A DNA stretch of 43,958 bases from contig MGCS01000008.1 of the NCBI GenBank assembly GCA_001790515.1, positions 1 to 43,958 on the forward strand, given 5' to 3'. This document shows positions 2,782 to 40,790 of the stretch, one piece after another. The first letter of the stretch is position 1; each line of letters starts with the position of its first letter. The position numbers were made by a program, and so were the translations under genes. This DNA comes from Candidatus Saccharibacteria bacterium RIFCSPHIGHO2_12_FULL_44_22. Its GTDB lineage: Bacteria; Patescibacteriota; Saccharimonadia; Saccharimonadales; Saccharimonadaceae. Below the pieces are notes generated by a model. The model worked only from the letters and a program-made list of their open reading frames with translations. It did not search any database and was not told the origin of the DNA.

Positions 2782-3462
2782 CTATTCCCTATTAGAAAAC
2801 TGAGGGCCAAATTTGAACGCTATTTCGTCGAACGCTTTGGCTGATTCAGATGTGTCATTAAATTGATCAATATGTCGGCAGATTGTCGCAAAGCCACTTC
2901 TATACAACTGGTCGCCGTAGTTACTAAAACTGATTGTCTGGCTGACCGTATCAATAATTGGCGCTATGACGGTTGACAACCGACTTGACCCATCAGTTGG
3001 TTGTGGATTGAACTCGTAATGGTCTTGATAATATTCAGTGCCTGCAGTGATAATCTGATCTGCATGACGCATGTACGAGCTCTTGTCGGAATCGTTCGGA
3101 GCTTCTTTGTGTATAGCTGTTGCTAGAATAGTGTCGTAGTCTTCGCTTAACATCGTATGAGCTAGGTGAATTCCTAGAACGGCACCGTAGATAAAATGCA
3201 ATCCGTGAGGTATCCGAGGTTCGCTAGCAGATACAGGTATTAGTGTCGTAGCGCGTGATAATTGCTGAATTGTTTTGAATGTCGCTGTTGACTCGTATCG
3301 ATGGAGTAGCGCACTATTAAATTGTTGAGGCGCTAATTCTTGACCGAAGTAGTACTCGTATTCATTATATTCGTTGACAATCTTTTTGCAATTTCTGTCG
3401 AATCCGATTAATCGTGCAAACTCGGTCATTTCGATGTGCGGTATTGGCGACTTTTCACTCAT
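2782..3462 (-). CDS. Hypothetical protein of a possible lineage-specific family (member 1)
   Basis: 226 residues from ATG 3462; TATACT (3470-3475) ends 7 nt upstream, giving a leaderless start in preference to the in-frame start at 3480. No known family. Mostly helical, with a motif HFIYGAVLGIHLAHTML about residues 90-106 that resembles FYYGSVVGYHLSTV in the 6929-7639 protein and NGALLGIEATSHAG in the 3902-4555 protein. A second weakly hydrophobic stretch lies near TVSQTISFSNYGDQLYRSGF. Acidic, no signal peptide, probably cytosolic. Confidence 0.6.
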   Translation of the reverse strand: MSEKSPIPHIEMTEFARLIGFDRNCKKIVNEYNEYEYYFGQELAPQQFNSALLHRYESTATFKTIQQLSRATTLIPVSASEPRIPHGLHFIYGAVLGIHLAHTMLSEDYDTILATAIHKEAPNDSDKSSYMRHADQIITAGTEYYQDHYEFNPQPTDGSSRLSTVIAPIIDTVSQTISFSNYGDQLYRSGFATICRHIDQFNDTSESAKAFDEIAFKFGPQFSNRE

Positions 3463-3548
3463 AATATAGAGTATAAACAAAGACTAGTTAATTATCACTA
3501 GATAATGACACACTCCACCTGCTTCATGATATGGTAGATGTAACCAGC

Positions 3549-3576
3549 GGTACTGAAATATGTACCGTGAGGTACA
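3549..3576 (+). promoter_or_regulatory. Interleaved GGTAC/GTACC arms before the 3596 gene
   Basis: GGTAC (3549-3553), GTACC (3562-3566) and GGTAC (3571-3575) alternate, so the middle arm can pair with either neighbour. The right pair extends to TGTACC-GTGA-GGTACA (3561-3576). This could be a dyad operator or a two-state RNA hairpin just ahead of the ribosome site at 3583-3591. Confidence 0.5.
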
Positions 3577-3595
3577 TTTACAAGAGAGGTGAACC

Positions 3596-3913
3596 ATGAC
3601 CGATGACCTTCGGCCAATGCATGAAGCACTGCTTGAGACTGCGATAGCTCTTTGCAAGGCAGTGACATCCGGCGTTATCAGGAAGTCGCAAGATGAATTT
3701 GCTGAACTAGAGAGAGTGCTGAATGAGCGGTACGCTGCACTTAGTAAGCGTTATGATCAAGAAAGTGATGCGTTTATCGATCTTCTTGAGAAAGAATTGA
3801 ACCATCTTGAGGCGGAGAGGCTCTTTCCGTGCAAGCCATCGCCTAGGGTTTCATCATGTCTACTGTCGTATATAATTTTAATGTATTCCACGCAATACTA
3901 TTTATTCAAGTGA
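3596..3913 (+). CDS. Hypothetical small helical protein
   Basis: 105 residues, no family recognised. The first ~80 residues are strongly helical with heptad-like Leu/Ala spacing (ALLETAIALCKAV, LERVLNERYAALSKRY, LLEKELNHLEAE), suggesting a coiled coil or helical bundle. The last ~25 residues change character to a Ser/Tyr/Leu-rich end, which may be a non-conserved extension. A clear Shine-Dalgarno (AGAGGTGA) precedes the ATG, unlike the leaderless neighbours. The 3' end overlaps the convergent gene by 12 nt. Regulation by the GGTAC arms upstream is likely but untested. Confidence 0.55.
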   Translation: MTDDLRPMHEALLETAIALCKAVTSGVIRKSQDEFAELERVLNERYAALSKRYDQESDAFIDLLEKELNHLEAERLFPCKPSPRVSSCLLSYIILMYSTQYYLFK

Positions 3914-11829: not shown

Positions 11830-11858
11830 TTGACAAAAAGTACTAAAAGTAGTATAAT
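11830..11858 (+). promoter_or_regulatory. Perfect consensus sigma70 promoter
   Basis: TTGACA (11830-11835), 17-nt spacer, TATAAT (11853-11858). It sits at the right edge of repeat copy 1 and drives the 11993 gene through a leader of ~125 nt that starts with a small AACTAT/ATAGTT hairpin. Confidence 0.88.
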
Positions 11859-23880: not shown

Positions 23881-24126
23881 CTACCCGATACTCACGAGCG
23901 TCCAGCTACCACCATGGTTGTCGCTCCGCAGACGAATGTCACTTTGTCCATCACTCATCGTGAGCACTTGTGCCATTCGCTCGCCGCTTCGGATGACTGT
24001 GCGCAACCCATTATCGACAAAGTCGTAGGTGCGCCCTGCGTACTCCATGCGTCGTGGGATTGCACGCATATCGCGTCCAAATCCCATTGCTGTGATTGCG
24101 ACTGGTGTATTAATTGTTGTTTTCAT
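23881..24126 (-). CDS. Small hypothetical basic protein
   Basis: 81 residues, Arg/Met-rich, no family recognised. Beta-rich pattern (RMEYAGRTYDFVDNG, RMAQVLTMSDGQ, SDIRLRSDNHGGSWTLVSI) suggests a small barrel. GAGGGGGAATAGGA precedes the ATG and TATACT lies about 30 nt further upstream, so it is a leadered gene with its own terminator. Small barrels of this kind can bind nucleic acid or partner proteins. Confidence 0.6.
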   Translation of the reverse strand: MKTTINTPVAITAMGFGRDMRAIPRRMEYAGRTYDFVDNGLRTVIRSGERMAQVLTMSDGQSDIRLRSDNHGGSWTLVSIG

Positions 24127-24439
24127 TATCCTATTCCCCCTCTTGGATGTGTTGTTTTGAGTATAAAAAATACTGACTACAAATGAGTGTGCCAGCGTAC
24201 GGATTTATGGGTGGAACTACAAGACTAAACAAAATTAACCGCACGTATTTGTTCGTAATGTCTGAAGTAGTGATTTGAAGTACGACAGGGACGCTTGGCG
24301 TAGCCAGTGTGTGTATCGACTTTGGTTTTGATTAGTCTGCGAGTGAAAAGGTTTCCCAGTACTCCCATGACTATCTACTAGTATAGCGCGGGCATTAGCT
24401 GACCGGTCAATGGCGTATGCTTGCTATTGTTGACATTAA
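24127..24439. other. Gap with no confident gene
   Basis: It holds the promoter of the 23881-24126 gene on its left edge and one weak small frame (24225-24368). I see no tRNA, repeat or strong hairpin. Confidence 0.5.
24225..24368 (-). CDS. Possible 47-residue orphan
   Basis: A basic peptide beginning MGVLGNLFTRRLIKTKVDTH. TATACT lies 11 nt before the ATG, a bit farther than in other leaderless genes. No family and no terminator, so this is a weak call. Confidence 0.3.
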   Translation of the reverse strand: MGVLGNLFTRRLIKTKVDTHTGYAKRPCRTSNHYFRHYEQIRAVNFV

Positions 24440-25132
24440 TTATTTCTTCAGTTTTTTGCCACGTTTGCCAAAGCCAAAGCTTCCTAGAACAACAGCAACG
24501 ACGATCACCCATGCAGCACTGACACACCATCCTGCCAGTACATCGGTCGGGTAGTGTACGCCCAGATACAATCGCGTAAAGCCTATCGCTATTACGTAGA
24601 ACGTCGCAATCGAAAACGTAATCCATCGCCAGCGCGTATGCCACATAACGACTACGAATGAAAACGCCAAAGCGCTTGATAGCATGGCGTGTCCGCTAGG
24701 GAATGAATAGCTATTTTCGAATATAAGATGCTGCCAAAGGTTCGGTCGGTCACGCTCGAATATGAGCTTTAGAGCGACATTAAGCAGCGCGGCACCTGCG
24801 ACACCTGCAGCTATCTGCAGGCATGATTGCCAACGGGAACGATACATAAATATCCCGATTGCTGCCGCTGTTAGTCCGGCAACTCCCAGAACGCCGCCAA
24901 GGCCAGTGATATGAAGGACGATTTCGTTAAGAACAGGGGTTGATTGATGATAGATACCAAGCAAAATACGAGTATCGATTTGCATCGTATCGCCTTCAAC
25001 AACTTCATCGGCAATGTAGGCAAATGCAACGACCGGAATAATAAATATGATAAATGCAACGATTAATTTCCGGAGGGTCGTGCGGCCTACGGGCTTGTCT
25101 GTTTGATCATAAATGTTACGCGTCCATGACAT
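24440..25132 (-). CDS. PAP2-family membrane phosphatase
   Basis: 230 residues with about six TM helices. All three catalytic motifs are present: KLIFERDRP (KxxxxxxRP), SFPSGHAM (PSGH) and TRLYLGVHYPTD (SRxxxxxHxxxD with Thr for Ser). The family removes phosphate from phosphatidylglycerol-phosphate, phosphatidate or undecaprenyl pyrophosphate. The C-terminus is very basic (KRGKKLKK). TACTAT (25142-25147) ends 9 nt before the ATG; likely leaderless. Divergent from the 25186 gene. Confidence 0.92.
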   Translation of the reverse strand: MSWTRNIYDQTDKPVGRTTLRKLIVAFIIFIIPVVAFAYIADEVVEGDTMQIDTRILLGIYHQSTPVLNEIVLHITGLGGVLGVAGLTAAAIGIFMYRSRWQSCLQIAAGVAGAALLNVALKLIFERDRPNLWQHLIFENSYSFPSGHAMLSSALAFSFVVVMWHTRWRWITFSIATFYVIAIGFTRLYLGVHYPTDVLAGWCVSAAWVIVVAVVLGSFGFGKRGKKLKK

Positions 25133-25185
25133 TGTCCATCTATAGTATCATTTCTATAAATAATCACGAGTATAATAGATAGTAC

Positions 25186-26628
25186 ATGGAGGTAAACGAA
25201 TTCAGTTTAGGAGACTATCGCGGCCCGATGGTGTTTGTCGATGTCGAAACGGACGGTATGAACTACACACGTGGCCATGTTATTGAGGTTGCGGCAATTC
25301 GTGTCGAAAACGGCCAGATTGTTGATGAATTCAAATCACTGATCAATCCCGACAGTGAACTGCCCTACTTTATAACAAAACTAACTGGCATCAGTTCGTC
25401 GGATCTTGTTGGTGCGCCTCATTTTTCGCAAATCGCAGACAAACTGTATGGCGTAATGGAAGGCGCGCTGTTTGTCGCACATAACGTCAAGTTCGACTAT
25501 TCGTTTTTGAAATCAGAATTTCGTCGCGTCGGCATGGATTTCTCTCCACGATTGTTTTGCACTGTGCGACTAAGCCGCGCGCTGTACCCTGAACAGTCGA
25601 GCCACAAGCTGGCGTCACTTATTGATCGTCACGGATTGCAATTTACTGATCGTCACCGAGCATACGATGATGCACATGCACTCTGGCAATTTGTGCAGAT
25701 TGCGGTGTCGACATTTGATACTGCGACGATCACTGCAGCGTTCAAAAAACAGTTACGATACCAGTCGTTGCCGCAACATCTTTCGTGGGAAGATATCAAC
25801 GCCCTACCCGATACGCCAGGCGTCTATTTTTTTGACGATGACGACGGTAATCCACTATATATTGGTAAAAGTGTGACGATTCGCCGTCGTGTTATGAGCC
25901 ACTTTAATCAAGATAGTGAACAATACAAAGAATTCAAAATGGCGCAACAAGTAAAAAAGATTCGGTATCAAGAAACGAGTGGAGAGTTAGAGGCGTTACT
26001 ACTTGAATCGCACCTGATAAAAACAATGCAGCCTCTGTTTAACCGACGATTGCGCCGCGTATCAAGTTTGATTGTCGCCAGACAAGTGTTCGACGTTCAC
26101 GGCTACGCAACAATTACAGCAGGTGTTCTCGACGATCCATCCCAGGCTGACGACCAATCGATTGTTGCCACCTATGCTAGCCGAGGCAAAGCAAAGAGCT
26201 CGCTCGAAAGTACTGTAAAGTTATTTCAGCTATGCCCAAAGCTATGTGGACTAGAAAAGTCCAAGGGTGCTTGTTTTTCGTACCAGCTTGGTCGATGTAA
26301 TGGTGCCTGCGTGGGTGCGGAATTACCACAACTATATAATCAACGTGTCGACGATGCGTTTGATGCGCGCCGCGTTGATGCATGGCCGTACGAAAGTCCT
26401 ATTGTCGTACAAGAGCGGCTGATAGATACGCCAGCCCATAAAGGCTTTGTGGTTGATGACTGGCGTGTACTTGGCCATATTGAGCAACAGGATGATTGCG
26501 ATCCAGTGTTTCACCGGCGTGAGCAGCCGTTCGATCTCGATGCCTACAAAATATTGCACGCATTTATTATGGATGGCAAGAAAGTGACGGTATCAACGAT
26601 ACCCCGGGACTATTTAGAGCATCTATAG
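25186..26628 (+). CDS. DnaQ-like exonuclease fused to GIY-YIG nuclease
   Basis: 480 residues. Residues 13-175 are a DEDDh exonuclease: DVETDG, HNVKFDYSFL, and HRAYDDAHA. Residues 207-290 form a GIY-YIG nuclease as in UvrC/Cho (PGVYFFDDDDGNPLYIGKS, then RRRV and a Glu at SGELEALLLESHLI). The Cys-rich region CPKLCGLEKSKGACF and RCNGACVG resembles the UvrC/Cho segment that follows. Such fusions occur widely in Actinobacteria and relatives and are thought to work in excision repair. TATAAT (25171-25176) ends 9 nt before the ATG: leaderless. Confidence 0.92.
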   Translation: MEVNEFSLGDYRGPMVFVDVETDGMNYTRGHVIEVAAIRVENGQIVDEFKSLINPDSELPYFITKLTGISSSDLVGAPHFSQIADKLYGVMEGALFVAHNVKFDYSFLKSEFRRVGMDFSPRLFCTVRLSRALYPEQSSHKLASLIDRHGLQFTDRHRAYDDAHALWQFVQIAVSTFDTATITAAFKKQLRYQSLPQHLSWEDINALPDTPGVYFFDDDDGNPLYIGKSVTIRRRVMSHFNQDSEQYKEFKMAQQVKKIRYQETSGELEALLLESHLIKTMQPLFNRRLRRVSSLIVARQVFDVHGYATITAGVLDDPSQADDQSIVATYASRGKAKSSLESTVKLFQLCPKLCGLEKSKGACFSYQLGRCNGACVGAELPQLYNQRVDDAFDARRVDAWPYESPIVVQERLIDTPAHKGFVVDDWRVLGHIEQQDDCDPVFHRREQPFDLDAYKILHAFIMDGKKVTVSTIPRDYLEHL

Positions 26629-26699
26629 ACATATCTAGTTGTTTATATTATGATACCCGTAACCCGCTCTATCCCAACTGTGAGAAAGAAGGTCGCACT

Positions 26700-26801
26700 A
26701 TGTATTACCGAAGACTGAAGCTAGTCGCACTTGCAGCCGGCATGGTCGCTGCAGTGATCTTCAACGTGATCATGGACAACAAGCTGAGGGAACAGGCATG
26801 A
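26700..26801 (+). CDS. 33-residue membrane micro-protein
   Basis: ATG 26700 follows AAGAAGG by 7 nt. A basic start (MYYRRLK) leads to one TM segment (LVALAAGMVAAVIFNVIM) and a charged end (DNKLREQA). The stop overlaps the next ATG (ATGA at 26798-26801), so the two are translationally coupled. First of three micro-ORFs between the DnaQ/GIY-YIG gene and tgt. Confidence 0.55.
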   Translation: MYYRRLKLVALAAGMVAAVIFNVIMDNKLREQA

Positions 26802-26908
26802 AGCCATGCGCTCTGGCAGTTGTGGTGGTAGCGGCAATCACCGCTGTCGTTACTGCTGTATGCAGATCCGCGCTTGGATCATCGGCTGGTCCAGTCAGGA
26901 CTAGATAG
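26798..26908 (+). CDS. 36-residue hydrophobic micro-protein
   Basis: Coupled to the preceding micro-ORF by ATGA overlap. One TM segment (CALAVVVVAAITAVVTAVC) precedes a short polar Arg-containing tail (RSALGSSAGPVRTR). Two Cys bracket the helix. No family recognised. Confidence 0.5.
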   Translation: MKPCALAVVVVAAITAVVTAVCRSALGSSAGPVRTR

Positions 26909-26948
26909 CTCCACTCCATTTCTGGCCATGTCAACATAAGGAGCGGTT

Positions 26949-27149
26949 ATGAAGCAGTTTGACCTTGCGGTGTTGTCAAGTAAGAACGCGCCGTTTATGC
27001 GAAAACGATCGCGACGGTGGTCAATTGCATCGAGGATTGGTGGAATGATTCCACTGTCGGTCCAGTGTAGTCGTCCAGTCGTCAGCCTTCGTGCCAGCAT
27101 TTCCTGGATACAGGAAATGCGTCGAGCATTGGGGCGTCAGTACCCGTAG
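26949..27149 (+). CDS. 66-residue cationic micro-protein
   Basis: AAGGAG is 6 nt before ATG 26949. Strongly basic (RKRSRRWSIASRIGG, then RRALGRQYP) with several Ser, Trp and Cys. It could bind RNA or act on membranes, but no family is recognised. A powerful terminator follows, closing the three-gene cassette. Base composition is more GC-rich than in the flanking leaderless genes. Confidence 0.5.
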   Translation: MKQFDLAVLSSKNAPFMRKRSRRWSIASRIGGMIPLSVQCSRPVVSLRASISWIQEMRRALGRQYP

Positions 27150-27153
27150 TGTG

Positions 27154-27197
27154 CGTGTGTCGCTCGTGAGGAGATCCTCACGAGCGACACACGTTTT
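27154..27197 (+). terminator. Strong terminator of the micro-ORF cassette
   Basis: A 19-bp perfect stem (27154-27172 with 27175-27193; CGTGTGTCGCTCGTGAGGA) followed by TTTT. It ends just upstream of the tgt promoter. Confidence 0.9.
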
Positions 27198-27220
27198 GAA
27201 TTTGTGATACGCTAATACAG

Positions 27221-28423
27221 ATGAAAAAAGCACTCGAATTTGAAATCCACGATCGTTTACCTGGCGCGTTGGCGCGGACTGGGACGATTACGACGCCACA
27301 CGGCATAATCCAAACTCCCGCATTTATTCCTGTGGGAACGAAAGCGACGCTAAAGGCACTGACACCAGAACAATTGTCTGAAACGGGCGCACAGGCAGTG
27401 TTAGCAAACGCCTATCATTTATATCTTCGCCCTGGGCACGATATCATCGACCAGGCTGGTGGACTGAACGAATTCATGCATTGGGACAAGCCGACATTCA
27501 CTGACAGCGGCGGATTCCAGGTTATGTCATTAGGTGTCGGGTTTAAAAAAATTATCGACATGGACGGCAAGACTGACGAGCGTCCACTTGGCAAAAAGGA
27601 AAAGTTGGCATGGATTGACAATGACGGTGTAAAATTCAAGTCGCATTTAGACGGCAGTATGCATAAATTTACACCAGAACTATCGATGCAGATTCAGCAT
27701 GGCATTGGTGCTGACATTACATTCGCTTTTGACGAATTGACGACGCTACATCATAATTATGAGTATCAAGTGGAATCACTTCACGAACGCACGCATCCAT
27801 GGGCAGTGCGGAGCCTTGTTGAACACCAGCGCTTGAACGAAGTGCGTACGCATCGACCGCCGCAAGCATTATTTGGTGTCGTTCAAGGAGCTAATTACGA
27901 AGATTTGCGACGGGAATGCTCAAAGTTTTTGGGTGCAATGGATTTTGACGGATACGGACTGGGTGGTGCATTCACCAAAGAAAATATCGGCGAAATCACT
28001 GGCTGGATGTGCCAAGAATTGCCCGAAAACAAACCACGGCATATGCTAGGGATCAGCGAACCTGATGATATATTTGATTGCATTGAAAACGGTGCTGACA
28101 CATTCGACTGCGTGTCACCTGCCCGTGTAGGTAGAAACGGTGCATTGTACACTAAATTCGGCCGGGTTAATGTCACTCGTGCGCAATATGCTACTGACTT
28201 TACTTCGTTCGATGCCGACTGCGATTGCTATACGTGTCAGAATTTTACATCCGCTTATCTTCATCACCTATTCAAATCTGGTGAATTACTGTCAAATACG
28301 CTAGCGACGATTCATAACGAACGCTTCATTATTCGGTTAGTCGATGATATTCGCCGTAGTATTAGCGACGGAACGTTCTATGATTTCAAACAGGTATTTT
28401 TGAATAATTACTATTCCAAATAA
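27221..28423 (+). CDS. tgt: tRNA-guanine transglycosylase
   Basis: 400 residues. FTDSGGFQVMSL holds the first catalytic Asp, the DCVSPARVGRNGALYT region the second, and GVVQGANYEDLRRE binds substrate. The zinc site CDCYTCQNFTSAYLHHL (Cys-x-Cys-x2-Cys...His) is intact. The enzyme swaps guanine at position 34 of GUN tRNAs for a queuine precursor. The usual DECTP is DELTT here. A TACGCT -10 with TGA ahead (27208-27213) ends 7 nt before the ATG: leaderless. A hairpin at 28427-28452 follows the stop. Other queuosine genes are not in the window. Confidence 0.94.
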   Translation: MKKALEFEIHDRLPGALARTGTITTPHGIIQTPAFIPVGTKATLKALTPEQLSETGAQAVLANAYHLYLRPGHDIIDQAGGLNEFMHWDKPTFTDSGGFQVMSLGVGFKKIIDMDGKTDERPLGKKEKLAWIDNDGVKFKSHLDGSMHKFTPELSMQIQHGIGADITFAFDELTTLHHNYEYQVESLHERTHPWAVRSLVEHQRLNEVRTHRPPQALFGVVQGANYEDLRRECSKFLGAMDFDGYGLGGAFTKENIGEITGWMCQELPENKPRHMLGISEPDDIFDCIENGADTFDCVSPARVGRNGALYTKFGRVNVTRAQYATDFTSFDADCDCYTCQNFTSAYLHHLFKSGELLSNTLATIHNERFIIRLVDDIRRSISDGTFYDFKQVFLNNYYSK

Positions 28424-28426
28424 TAG

Positions 28427-28452
28427 GAAATCCCTCGCTGACTACGGATTTC
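28427..28452 (+). terminator. Hairpin after tgt
   Basis: GAAATCC (28427-28433) pairs with GGATTTC (28446-28452); no strong U-run. Confidence 0.5.
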
Positions 28453-28502
28453 TAGTATAGATGTCGGTAGTCAATCACCTGTATATTTGCTATCATACAG
28501 TT

Positions 28503-28796
28503 ATGCATACGTTTATTCTTGTCACTCACATACTATCAATGTCGTTATCACTTTTGCTAATGACGGGCGCGATAGGTATGGCTCTGTTTGGTGTAAAATC
28601 TTCGGTAACGGCAGCAACAATAGGCATGGTGATGACAGTTAGTGGCTTTGTAACTGGCGGCCTATTGCTTCTAGGATCTCCATTGACGATGCAATGCGTA
28701 ACACTGACGGCGTATCTATTGGTCATGGTTGTGGTATACCGATTCGGATTTGGCATGGGTCATGTCGAAAATGCACGGCTTGTTCGATCTAGCTAG
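28503..28796 (+). CDS. Small three-helix membrane protein
   Basis: 97 residues from ATG 28503. TGC-TATCAT (28491-28496) ends 6 nt upstream: leaderless. Three hydrophobic segments: around residues 5-30, 35-58 and 62-82, ending FGMGHVENARLVRSS. His in THILSMSLSL and Met-rich helices are notable; a haem or metal role is possible but unsupported. No family recognised. Confidence 0.65.
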   Translation: MHTFILVTHILSMSLSLLLMTGAIGMALFGVKSSVTAATIGMVMTVSGFVTGGLLLLGSPLTMQCVTLTAYLLVMVVVYRFGFGMGHVENARLVRSS

Positions 28797-28839
28797 TCAC
28801 TACTGTAATAATGCGACAATATAGAGTATACTTACAGAC

Positions 28840-29973
28840 ATGAAAGTCCGTATTGAAATTGATACCCATACCTTTGTTCGTTTTTGGCTTGTAGTCATTG
28901 GATTTGCGCTTGCCGCATTGGCAATATTCAGTGCTCGATCTGCACTGATGATTCTTGGTATCGCTTTTTTCTTGGCGCTAGCCCTTAATAGCCCAGTGAC
29001 AAAACTAGCCGGGTGGTTACCTGGCAAAAGTCGTGTTGGCGGCACTGCAATCGCCTTCGTTATCGTCGTGGCGCTGTTGGGTGCGTTTATCGTACTGGTA
29101 GTCCCACCTATTATCCAACAGACTGCCAAGGTTGCAGAGACGATTCCGTCTCTTGTCGATTCGGCGCAGCAGCAGTGGCATGGTGTCGATGAATTGGTAA
29201 CGAAATACCATCTTGAATCCCAAGTTGACAACGCGGTCAATTCTATCAAAGACAATGCAGCTGGCTGGGCTGCTAATGCTGGACAGATTGCAGTCTCTAG
29301 TCTTGGGTCGTTGCTTGGTCTGATCGCGTCAACATTCTTGGTGTTGGTACTGTCGTTCTTGATGCTTATCGAAGCGCCGATGTGGTTGCGCCGACTGTGG
29401 GCGGTCTACAACGACAACGAACGCATGGAGGCTCATAAAAAACTTGCATCGCGCATGTATAATGTCGTAACGGGATATGTCACAGGACAACTGACAGTAT
29501 CGGCCATAGGTGCGTTCACTACGGGTATCGTCGTGTTTGTGTTGCACTTTGTATTTCCTAATATCCCAATCAACCTTGCACTCCCTGCTGCTGCGATTGC
29601 ATTTGTATTTTCACTGATTCCTATGTTCGGATCGACAATCGCAGGAGTATTGATTTCGATTTTGCTGGCATTTAACGATGTTACTGCTGCAATTGTGTTC
29701 GTGATCTTCTTTATTCTGTATCAGCAAGTTGAAAACAATCTTATTGCCCCGAAAATCCAGTCAAAGGCTGTCGAATTGTCTGCACTGGCTGTACTCGCCG
29801 CGGTAACGGTTGGGCTATATGTGTTCGGCATAGCTGGAGGTATTATATCGATACCAATAGCAGGCTGCATCAAAGTACTTCTTGAAGATTATCTAGAGCG
29901 TGCAAAACTGAAGCGTCACAAGAGTGACAAGCCGCTTCACAAACTTGTGAAAAAAATGCATAGTGAGTCTTAG
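28840..29973 (+). CDS. AI-2E family transporter (PerM/YdiK-like)
   Basis: 377 residues. The AI-2E (PF01594) pattern: two N-terminal TM helices, a soluble coiled section (IPSLVDSAQQQWHG...), then several TM helices with IPMFGSTIAGV and the end motif FGIAGGIISIPIAG. The family includes transporters of autoinducer-2, polyols or Na+/H+, and many members have unknown substrate. TATACT (28827-28832) ends 7 nt before the ATG: leaderless. The C-terminus is basic. Confidence 0.92.
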   Translation: MKVRIEIDTHTFVRFWLVVIGFALAALAIFSARSALMILGIAFFLALALNSPVTKLAGWLPGKSRVGGTAIAFVIVVALLGAFIVLVVPPIIQQTAKVAETIPSLVDSAQQQWHGVDELVTKYHLESQVDNAVNSIKDNAAGWAANAGQIAVSSLGSLLGLIASTFLVLVLSFLMLIEAPMWLRRLWAVYNDNERMEAHKKLASRMYNVVTGYVTGQLTVSAIGAFTTGIVVFVLHFVFPNIPINLALPAAAIAFVFSLIPMFGSTIAGVLISILLAFNDVTAAIVFVIFFILYQQVENNLIAPKIQSKAVELSALAVLAAVTVGLYVFGIAGGIISIPIAGCIKVLLEDYLERAKLKRHKSDKPLHKLVKKMHSES

Positions 29974-30033
29974 AGAGACCTGCAACGACCACCAATACTT
30001 GCCATTTAGTTCATTATATGCTATAATTATAGT

Positions 30034-40552: not shown

Positions 40553-40637
40553 AAAAATCCTTTCTTTAGTTGTTTTTTATTCGACCAGATTGTCAATGTA
40601 CAGGTAATGTGAGTTTCGCAGGAAGATTTGAATAAAC

Positions 40638-40755
40638 AAAAAGCCTTTGATGCTCGCATCACCAAAGACCTACTGTGTTCACAAAAGATTGTTTGCACCT
40701 CGGTAGCTGATTAAGCATTGATTTCTCGTTGCCGCCACTGTCTCTGGTAATGTCA
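40638..40755 (-). ncRNA. L10 ribosomal leader with attenuator hairpin
   Basis: On the minus strand: ACCAGAGACAG, CTTAAT and CTACCGAGGTGC occur in the order expected for the L10 leader family, followed by a CTTTGGTGATG/CATCAAAG hairpin and CTTTTTG (40638-40667), which looks like a terminator/attenuator. It should let L10-L12 control rplJL expression. Confidence 0.82.
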
Positions 40756-40761
40756 CCTATT

Positions 40762-40790
40762 ATTATATCGCAAGTAACAGCATTAATCAA
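40762..40790 (-). promoter_or_regulatory. rplJL promoter
   Basis: Minus strand TTGATT (40790-40785), 17-nt spacer, TATAAT (40767-40762). Confidence 0.85.

Follow-up and report, generated by a model that had tools for sequence, protein, structure and literature searches.

Three small open reading frames (ORFs A, B and C), lying between an exonuclease gene and tgt in the window (i.e., the whole 43,958-nucleotide contig analysed, part of a 1.23-Mb genome), very probably form a genuine operon of translated microproteins. This judgement was reached by sequence comparison: the ORFs, their order, the ATGA overlap between A and B, the Shine-Dalgarno (SD) sites, the promoter and the hairpin were all kept in locus L004 (SEAL01000013.1), which comes from a different genus, and nonsynonymous change between the two was depressed. 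The three genes would constitute a lineage-restricted operon with a promoter and terminator of its own. Saccharibacteria have very small genomes, and those cultured live on other bacteria; this very small genome nonetheless retains an operon for proteins of 33, 36 and 66 residues that are easily missed by annotation. The operon introduces no new principle; its two coupled membrane microproteins and their basic partner are a well-delimited subject for experiments, in which the homologues from the second genus can guide mutagenesis.

Map and products of the cassette

The gap between the exonuclease/GIY-YIG gene and tgt is 592 nt and houses the cassette at 26700-27149 of the + strand (Table 1). 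The preliminary description had listed three micro-ORFs of these lengths, two of them joined by ATGA, and both the coordinates and the overlap were exactly as claimed. Other genes near the cassette encode a 111-aa protein without an assigned family, a PAP2 protein and an AI-2E transporter-family protein. GC content, taken in 200-nt steps, was 0.51-0.55 over the cassette vs 0.37-0.54 elsewhere in 24000-30000, so the claim of GC above the flanks holds as a modest rise. An 81-aa protein encoded at 23881-24126 (-) resembles, by eye, 81-aa frames immediately 5' of tgt in loci L007 and L025; it is a conserved small saccharibacterial protein with no relation to the cassette.

Table 1. Positions within the window of the cassette, its signals and its neighbours.
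Feature	Position	Strand	Description	Basis or L004 counterpart
RNase T-type exonuclease/GIY-YIG gene	25186-26628		5' neighbour of cassette	family search
Putative promoter	26626-26654	+	TAGACA - 17 nt - TATGAT; 10/12 match	same -35/-10 and spacing in L004
SD-like site of ORF A	26689-26692	+	AAGG	sequence; TAGG in L004, equal spacing
ORF A	26700-26801	+	33 aa; basic N-terminus; a single membrane span predicted at residues ~6-24	
ORF B	26798-26908	+	36 aa; a single membrane span (or an uncleaved signal anchor) predicted at residues ~4-22	
SD site of ORF C	26938-26943	+	AAGGAG	sequence; AAGGAG in L004 too
ORF C	26949-27149	+	66 aa; net charge +11; C-terminal helix predicted and conserved	
Block identical in L004	27123-27154	+	32 nt; last ORF C codons and stop, up to hairpin	
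Intrinsic-terminator-like hairpin	27153-27198	+	19 pairs and TTTT	inverted repeat, folding, compensatory changes
Putative tgt promoter region	27203-27220	+	3' of terminator, directly 5' of tgt ATG	by-eye comparison
tgt	27221-28423		3' neighbour of cassette	family search

The maximal hydropathy (19-residue mean) was 2.27 for A, 2.74 for B and 0.87 for C, with net charges of +3 and +4 for A and B, in agreement with the earlier account of A and B as single transmembrane helices (the spans themselves being predicted) and of C as a cationic peptide; the product of ORF C is probably peripheral. The L004 peptides agree with those of the window in both hydropathy and charge, and residues G14 and A18 are shared between the two A peptides, as are A12, A16 and C22 between the two B peptides. 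AlphaFold models of ORF C built on two-row alignments were of low confidence (mean pLDDT 58 and 59). They placed a C-terminal helix at residues 47-64 of the window protein and 67-84 of the L004 protein, within which pLDDT averaged over 10-residue blocks reached 85 (window) and 73 (L004); an N-terminal helix was predicted for the longer L004 protein only.

The preliminary description had recognised none of the three peptides, and the libraries searched likewise gave no relevant family: A, B and C were without a match at E < 0.1 in PADLOC, Pfam, NCBIfam and PHROGs. The best of the weak matches for A were two PHROGs of unknown function (E 0.1 and 0.18) and a SecDF chain (E 0.27), and the L004 form of B weakly matched a poxvirus family (E 0.35); the remaining family, solved-structure and phage searches of the peptides gave nothing. 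The low-confidence ORF C model found no match of weight in a viral structure library (best E 3.5). The listings and starts of abstracts returned by a literature search did not contain such a microprotein operon.

Conservation of the cassette in a second genus

When the ORFs were run by tblastn against 23 of 80 Tgt-neighbour loci, L004 was the one locus that matched all three, with E-values of 2e-10 for A, 2e-5 for B and 1e-17 for C and identities to the window of 61%, 42% and 59%, respectively. Their place and order are unchanged there, and A and B again overlap through ATGA; two of the checks proposed beforehand, tBLASTn of each peptide and conservation of the overlap, gave a positive result. 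The L004 proteins B and C are 43 and 86 aa long, the extra length of C being close to its N-terminus. Aligned promoter hexamers read TAGACA/TATGAT in the window and TAGACG/TATGAT in L004, both with 17-nt spacing; the number of promoter-like sites in the scan was no higher than in shuffled sequence.

The synonymous-biased conservation upon which the preliminary description had staked its coding claim was found. Nei-Gojobori counts for window vs L004 gave pS of 0.56 (A), 0.68-0.71 (B) and 0.74 (C), and pN of 0.21, 0.38-0.39 and 0.28, the small spread for B coming from differing treatment of paths via stop codons. Compared with 2000 permutations of substitutions among like bases, pN/pS was 0.38 for A (permuted mean 0.88; as low in 1.0% of permutations), 0.57 for B (permuted mean 0.93; as low in 1.15%) and 0.38 for C (permuted mean 0.86; as low in 0 of 2000), an estimate resting on one genome pair, the two carriers. 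The test also gave low values for antisense frames, 73/80 aa long opposite C and 55/45 aa long opposite B (0.05% of 2000 each). The wobble positions of both strands coincide for ORF C; the coding strand was therefore chosen from the positions of the starts, SD sites, promoter, ATGA overlap and terminator, all on the + strand, and not from pN/pS. The ends of the antisense frames are ragged. Codon usage, as log-odds per codon, was typical for A (0.188) and weak for B (-0.139) and C (-0.001), vs 0.113-0.245 in 15 reference genes. Conserved ORFs, overlap, promoter, SD sites and terminator, together with low pN/pS, leave the earlier proposal of a translated micro-ORF cassette well supported.

The 19-bp terminator reported earlier was recovered as a perfect 19-nt inverted repeat 3' of ORF C (arms 27154-27172 / 27175-27193), which tops the list of inverted repeats in the window. 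Folding z was -7.2 for window positions 27100-27200 and -4.7 for L004. The word "strong" that had been applied to the terminator suits its stem but not its U tract, which is merely TTTT followed by GAATTT. In L004, 14 of the 19 pairs were unchanged, 4 were changed on both sides, 1 had become G-U and 0 were broken; these compensated changes without a broken pair indicate that the structure of the hairpin has been preserved. The 32-nt block at the end of ORF C was identical in the two genomes though other synonymous sites are nearly saturated; its run of identical codons is 9 including the stop, and the longest such run in 400 tgt codons is 8. The excess is slight, and a signal overlapping the coding sequence may lie behind it.

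Distribution and history

The range of the cassette is narrow: it was found in two genomes and convincingly in no other, in family samples as large as 394 genomes; the samples overlap, were drawn from larger groups and represent each of the carriers' two genera by one genome. A DNA search matched the genome of the window alone (1 of 61). An ORF C profile matched 10 of 392 genomes of the class at E <= 0.01, convincingly only its own (2e-37); at E <= 0.001, 5 of 394 from the family, convincingly its own and G423 (4e-53); and 6 of the 15 genomes behind the loci at E <= 1, convincingly G000 and G410. G410 is the genome of L004, and the G423 match lies at the identical contig number and coordinates. 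The ORF A profile matched 1 of 392 genomes of the class and 9 of 344 of the family (E <= 0.05), two of the latter convincingly, and the ORF B profile 16 of 388 of the family (E <= 0.05), again with two convincing. Weaker profile matches (E ~1e-4 to 0.05, up to 1) were judged from the tables to be chance; they were partial, and many contained stops or lay inside long open frames.

The Tgt of the window, which places it among the Saccharibacteria, is closest to those of L003 (Saccharibacteria GW2011_GWC2_44_17, 90%) and L004 (89%), and in a 13-row Tgt tree these three formed one group (98/99), within which L003 paired with L004 (90/86, not starred). In L003, this close relative, the exonuclease gene and tgt abut, the cassette is missing, and ORF C was not found elsewhere (best E 0.45). 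Most simply, L003 has lost the cassette; transfer is possible, since the exonuclease has a different history (window-L022 76%, window-L004 65%). The L004 record is labelled Chloroflexi PMG_070, yet the tree places its Tgt among those of Saccharibacteria and, from the family label of G423, its genome appears to belong to the family of the window; the record is probably mislabelled. In L022, the gap between the exonuclease gene and tgt is occupied by an unrelated 318-aa gene in reverse orientation; the tgt of that locus (3001-3897) lacks an internal stretch present in its relatives, which may represent a deletion or an assembly fault. Micro-ORFs in the gap upstream of tgt in other loci bore no likeness, by eye, to the cassette.

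Possible role and alternative explanations

As the most likely role we tentatively propose a small membrane complex of the three peptides, which would tune the cell envelope. The ATGA overlap would couple translation of A and B, which may be made in equal amounts and inserted as single-span membrane peptides; these could pack side by side via small-xxx-small motifs (G14/A18 of A, A12/A16 of B) and hold the basic, mostly disordered C, of which the predicted C-terminal helix is the best conserved part, at the membrane's inner face. The complex might then tune a membrane machine or the envelope rather than the neighbouring exonuclease or Tgt. Against this mechanism counts L003, which lives free of the cassette. 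Small single-span membrane proteins of the KdpF, CydX, AcrZ and MgtS kind tune membrane complexes and have a known large partner; they are like A and B in size (about 30-50 residues) and in having one span, but the cassette comprises three microproteins in their own operon with no partner adjacent, and the libraries searched showed no sequence relation.

The preliminary description had been reminded of toxin, bacteriocin-like or membrane-stress modules. In a toxic or bacteriocin-like module, A and/or B would be membrane-active peptides and C a cationic partner, antagonist or antitoxin. Small size, one hydrophobic span each, positive charge and patchy presence (L003 being without the cassette) agree with this; nevertheless we consider it unlikely, as the library searches described above, PADLOC included, gave no match at E < 0.1, and no exporter, immunity or antitoxin gene could be recognised adjoining the cassette, leaving nothing specific in its favour. 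Type I toxin peptides such as TisB, Hok and Fst share size and a hydrophobic span with the cassette peptides, whereas the cassette has three coupled genes, no library sequence match and no antisense RNA found; the one minus-strand promoter-like site 5' of A (26677-26650) belongs to a set whose count is within chance. Class IIb two-peptide bacteriocins likewise consist of two adjacent small hydrophobic or cationic peptides, but the cassette is without an adjacent ABC exporter or immunity gene, and no double-glycine leader was found by eye in A or B of either genome. Entericidin-like lipoprotein pairs are also two tiny tandem membrane peptides, and B of the cassette has an invariant Cys; however, the lipobox consensus is [LVI][ASTVI][GAS]C, which the B residues VTAV-C (window) and VSVA-C (L004) do not fit.

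It is improbable that the cassette is what is left of a mobile or phage insertion undergoing decay. The content of the gap differs among relatives (nothing in L003, the reverse gene in L022) and GC is somewhat above the flanks, as such a remnant might leave, but amino-acid change was selected against and the hairpin compensated over a distance at which synonymous sites are close to saturation. Membership of a phage or plasmid module was rejected, since searches of phages and viral contigs found no relative and the one plasmid match had E 0.3.

Distinctly improbable, too, is a cis-regulatory leader of tgt in which ORF C, or the 32-nt block with the hairpin, serves as an attenuator. The hairpin ends 26 nt 5' of the tgt ATG and adjoins the identical block, as an attenuator might; however, the stem changed with compensation while the block was unchanged, so an antiterminator pairing between them was not kept, and Rfam gave nothing near gathering scores in the region, by which a known RNA was ruled out. 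In addition, an extended -10-like sequence and short leader lie 3' of the hairpin, directly 5' of tgt, and are alike by eye in the window and 12 saccharibacterial loci (L003, L004, L005, L006, L007, L008, L009, L011, L012, L014, L022 and L025), which include the cassette-less L003 and L022. From this promoter-like sequence common to cassette-less relatives we infer that the cassette transcript would end at the hairpin and tgt would initiate separately. The -10-like sequence lies so near the tgt ATG in many saccharibacterial loci as to suggest a nearly leaderless tgt mRNA.

Very improbable is an undescribed three-part saccharibacterial complex in which C is a membrane-tethered basic effector, working at the cell surface to the benefit or detriment of the host bacterium or of a competitor, with the cassette gained and lost as a unit. 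Hardly credible are chance ORFs in an intergenic region, or a non-coding RNA: short ORFs are frequent (88 that are 25 aa or longer overlap 24000-30000) and the codon usage of B and C is atypical, but starts, overlap and codon-biased divergence are conserved in L004, for which reason a chance cluster was rejected.

Elsewhere in the window, a ribosomal protein L10 leader was detected at 40628-40765 (-) with 52.1 bits, and a perfect 12/12 promoter match, TTGACA-17-TATAAT, is located at 11830-11858 (+).
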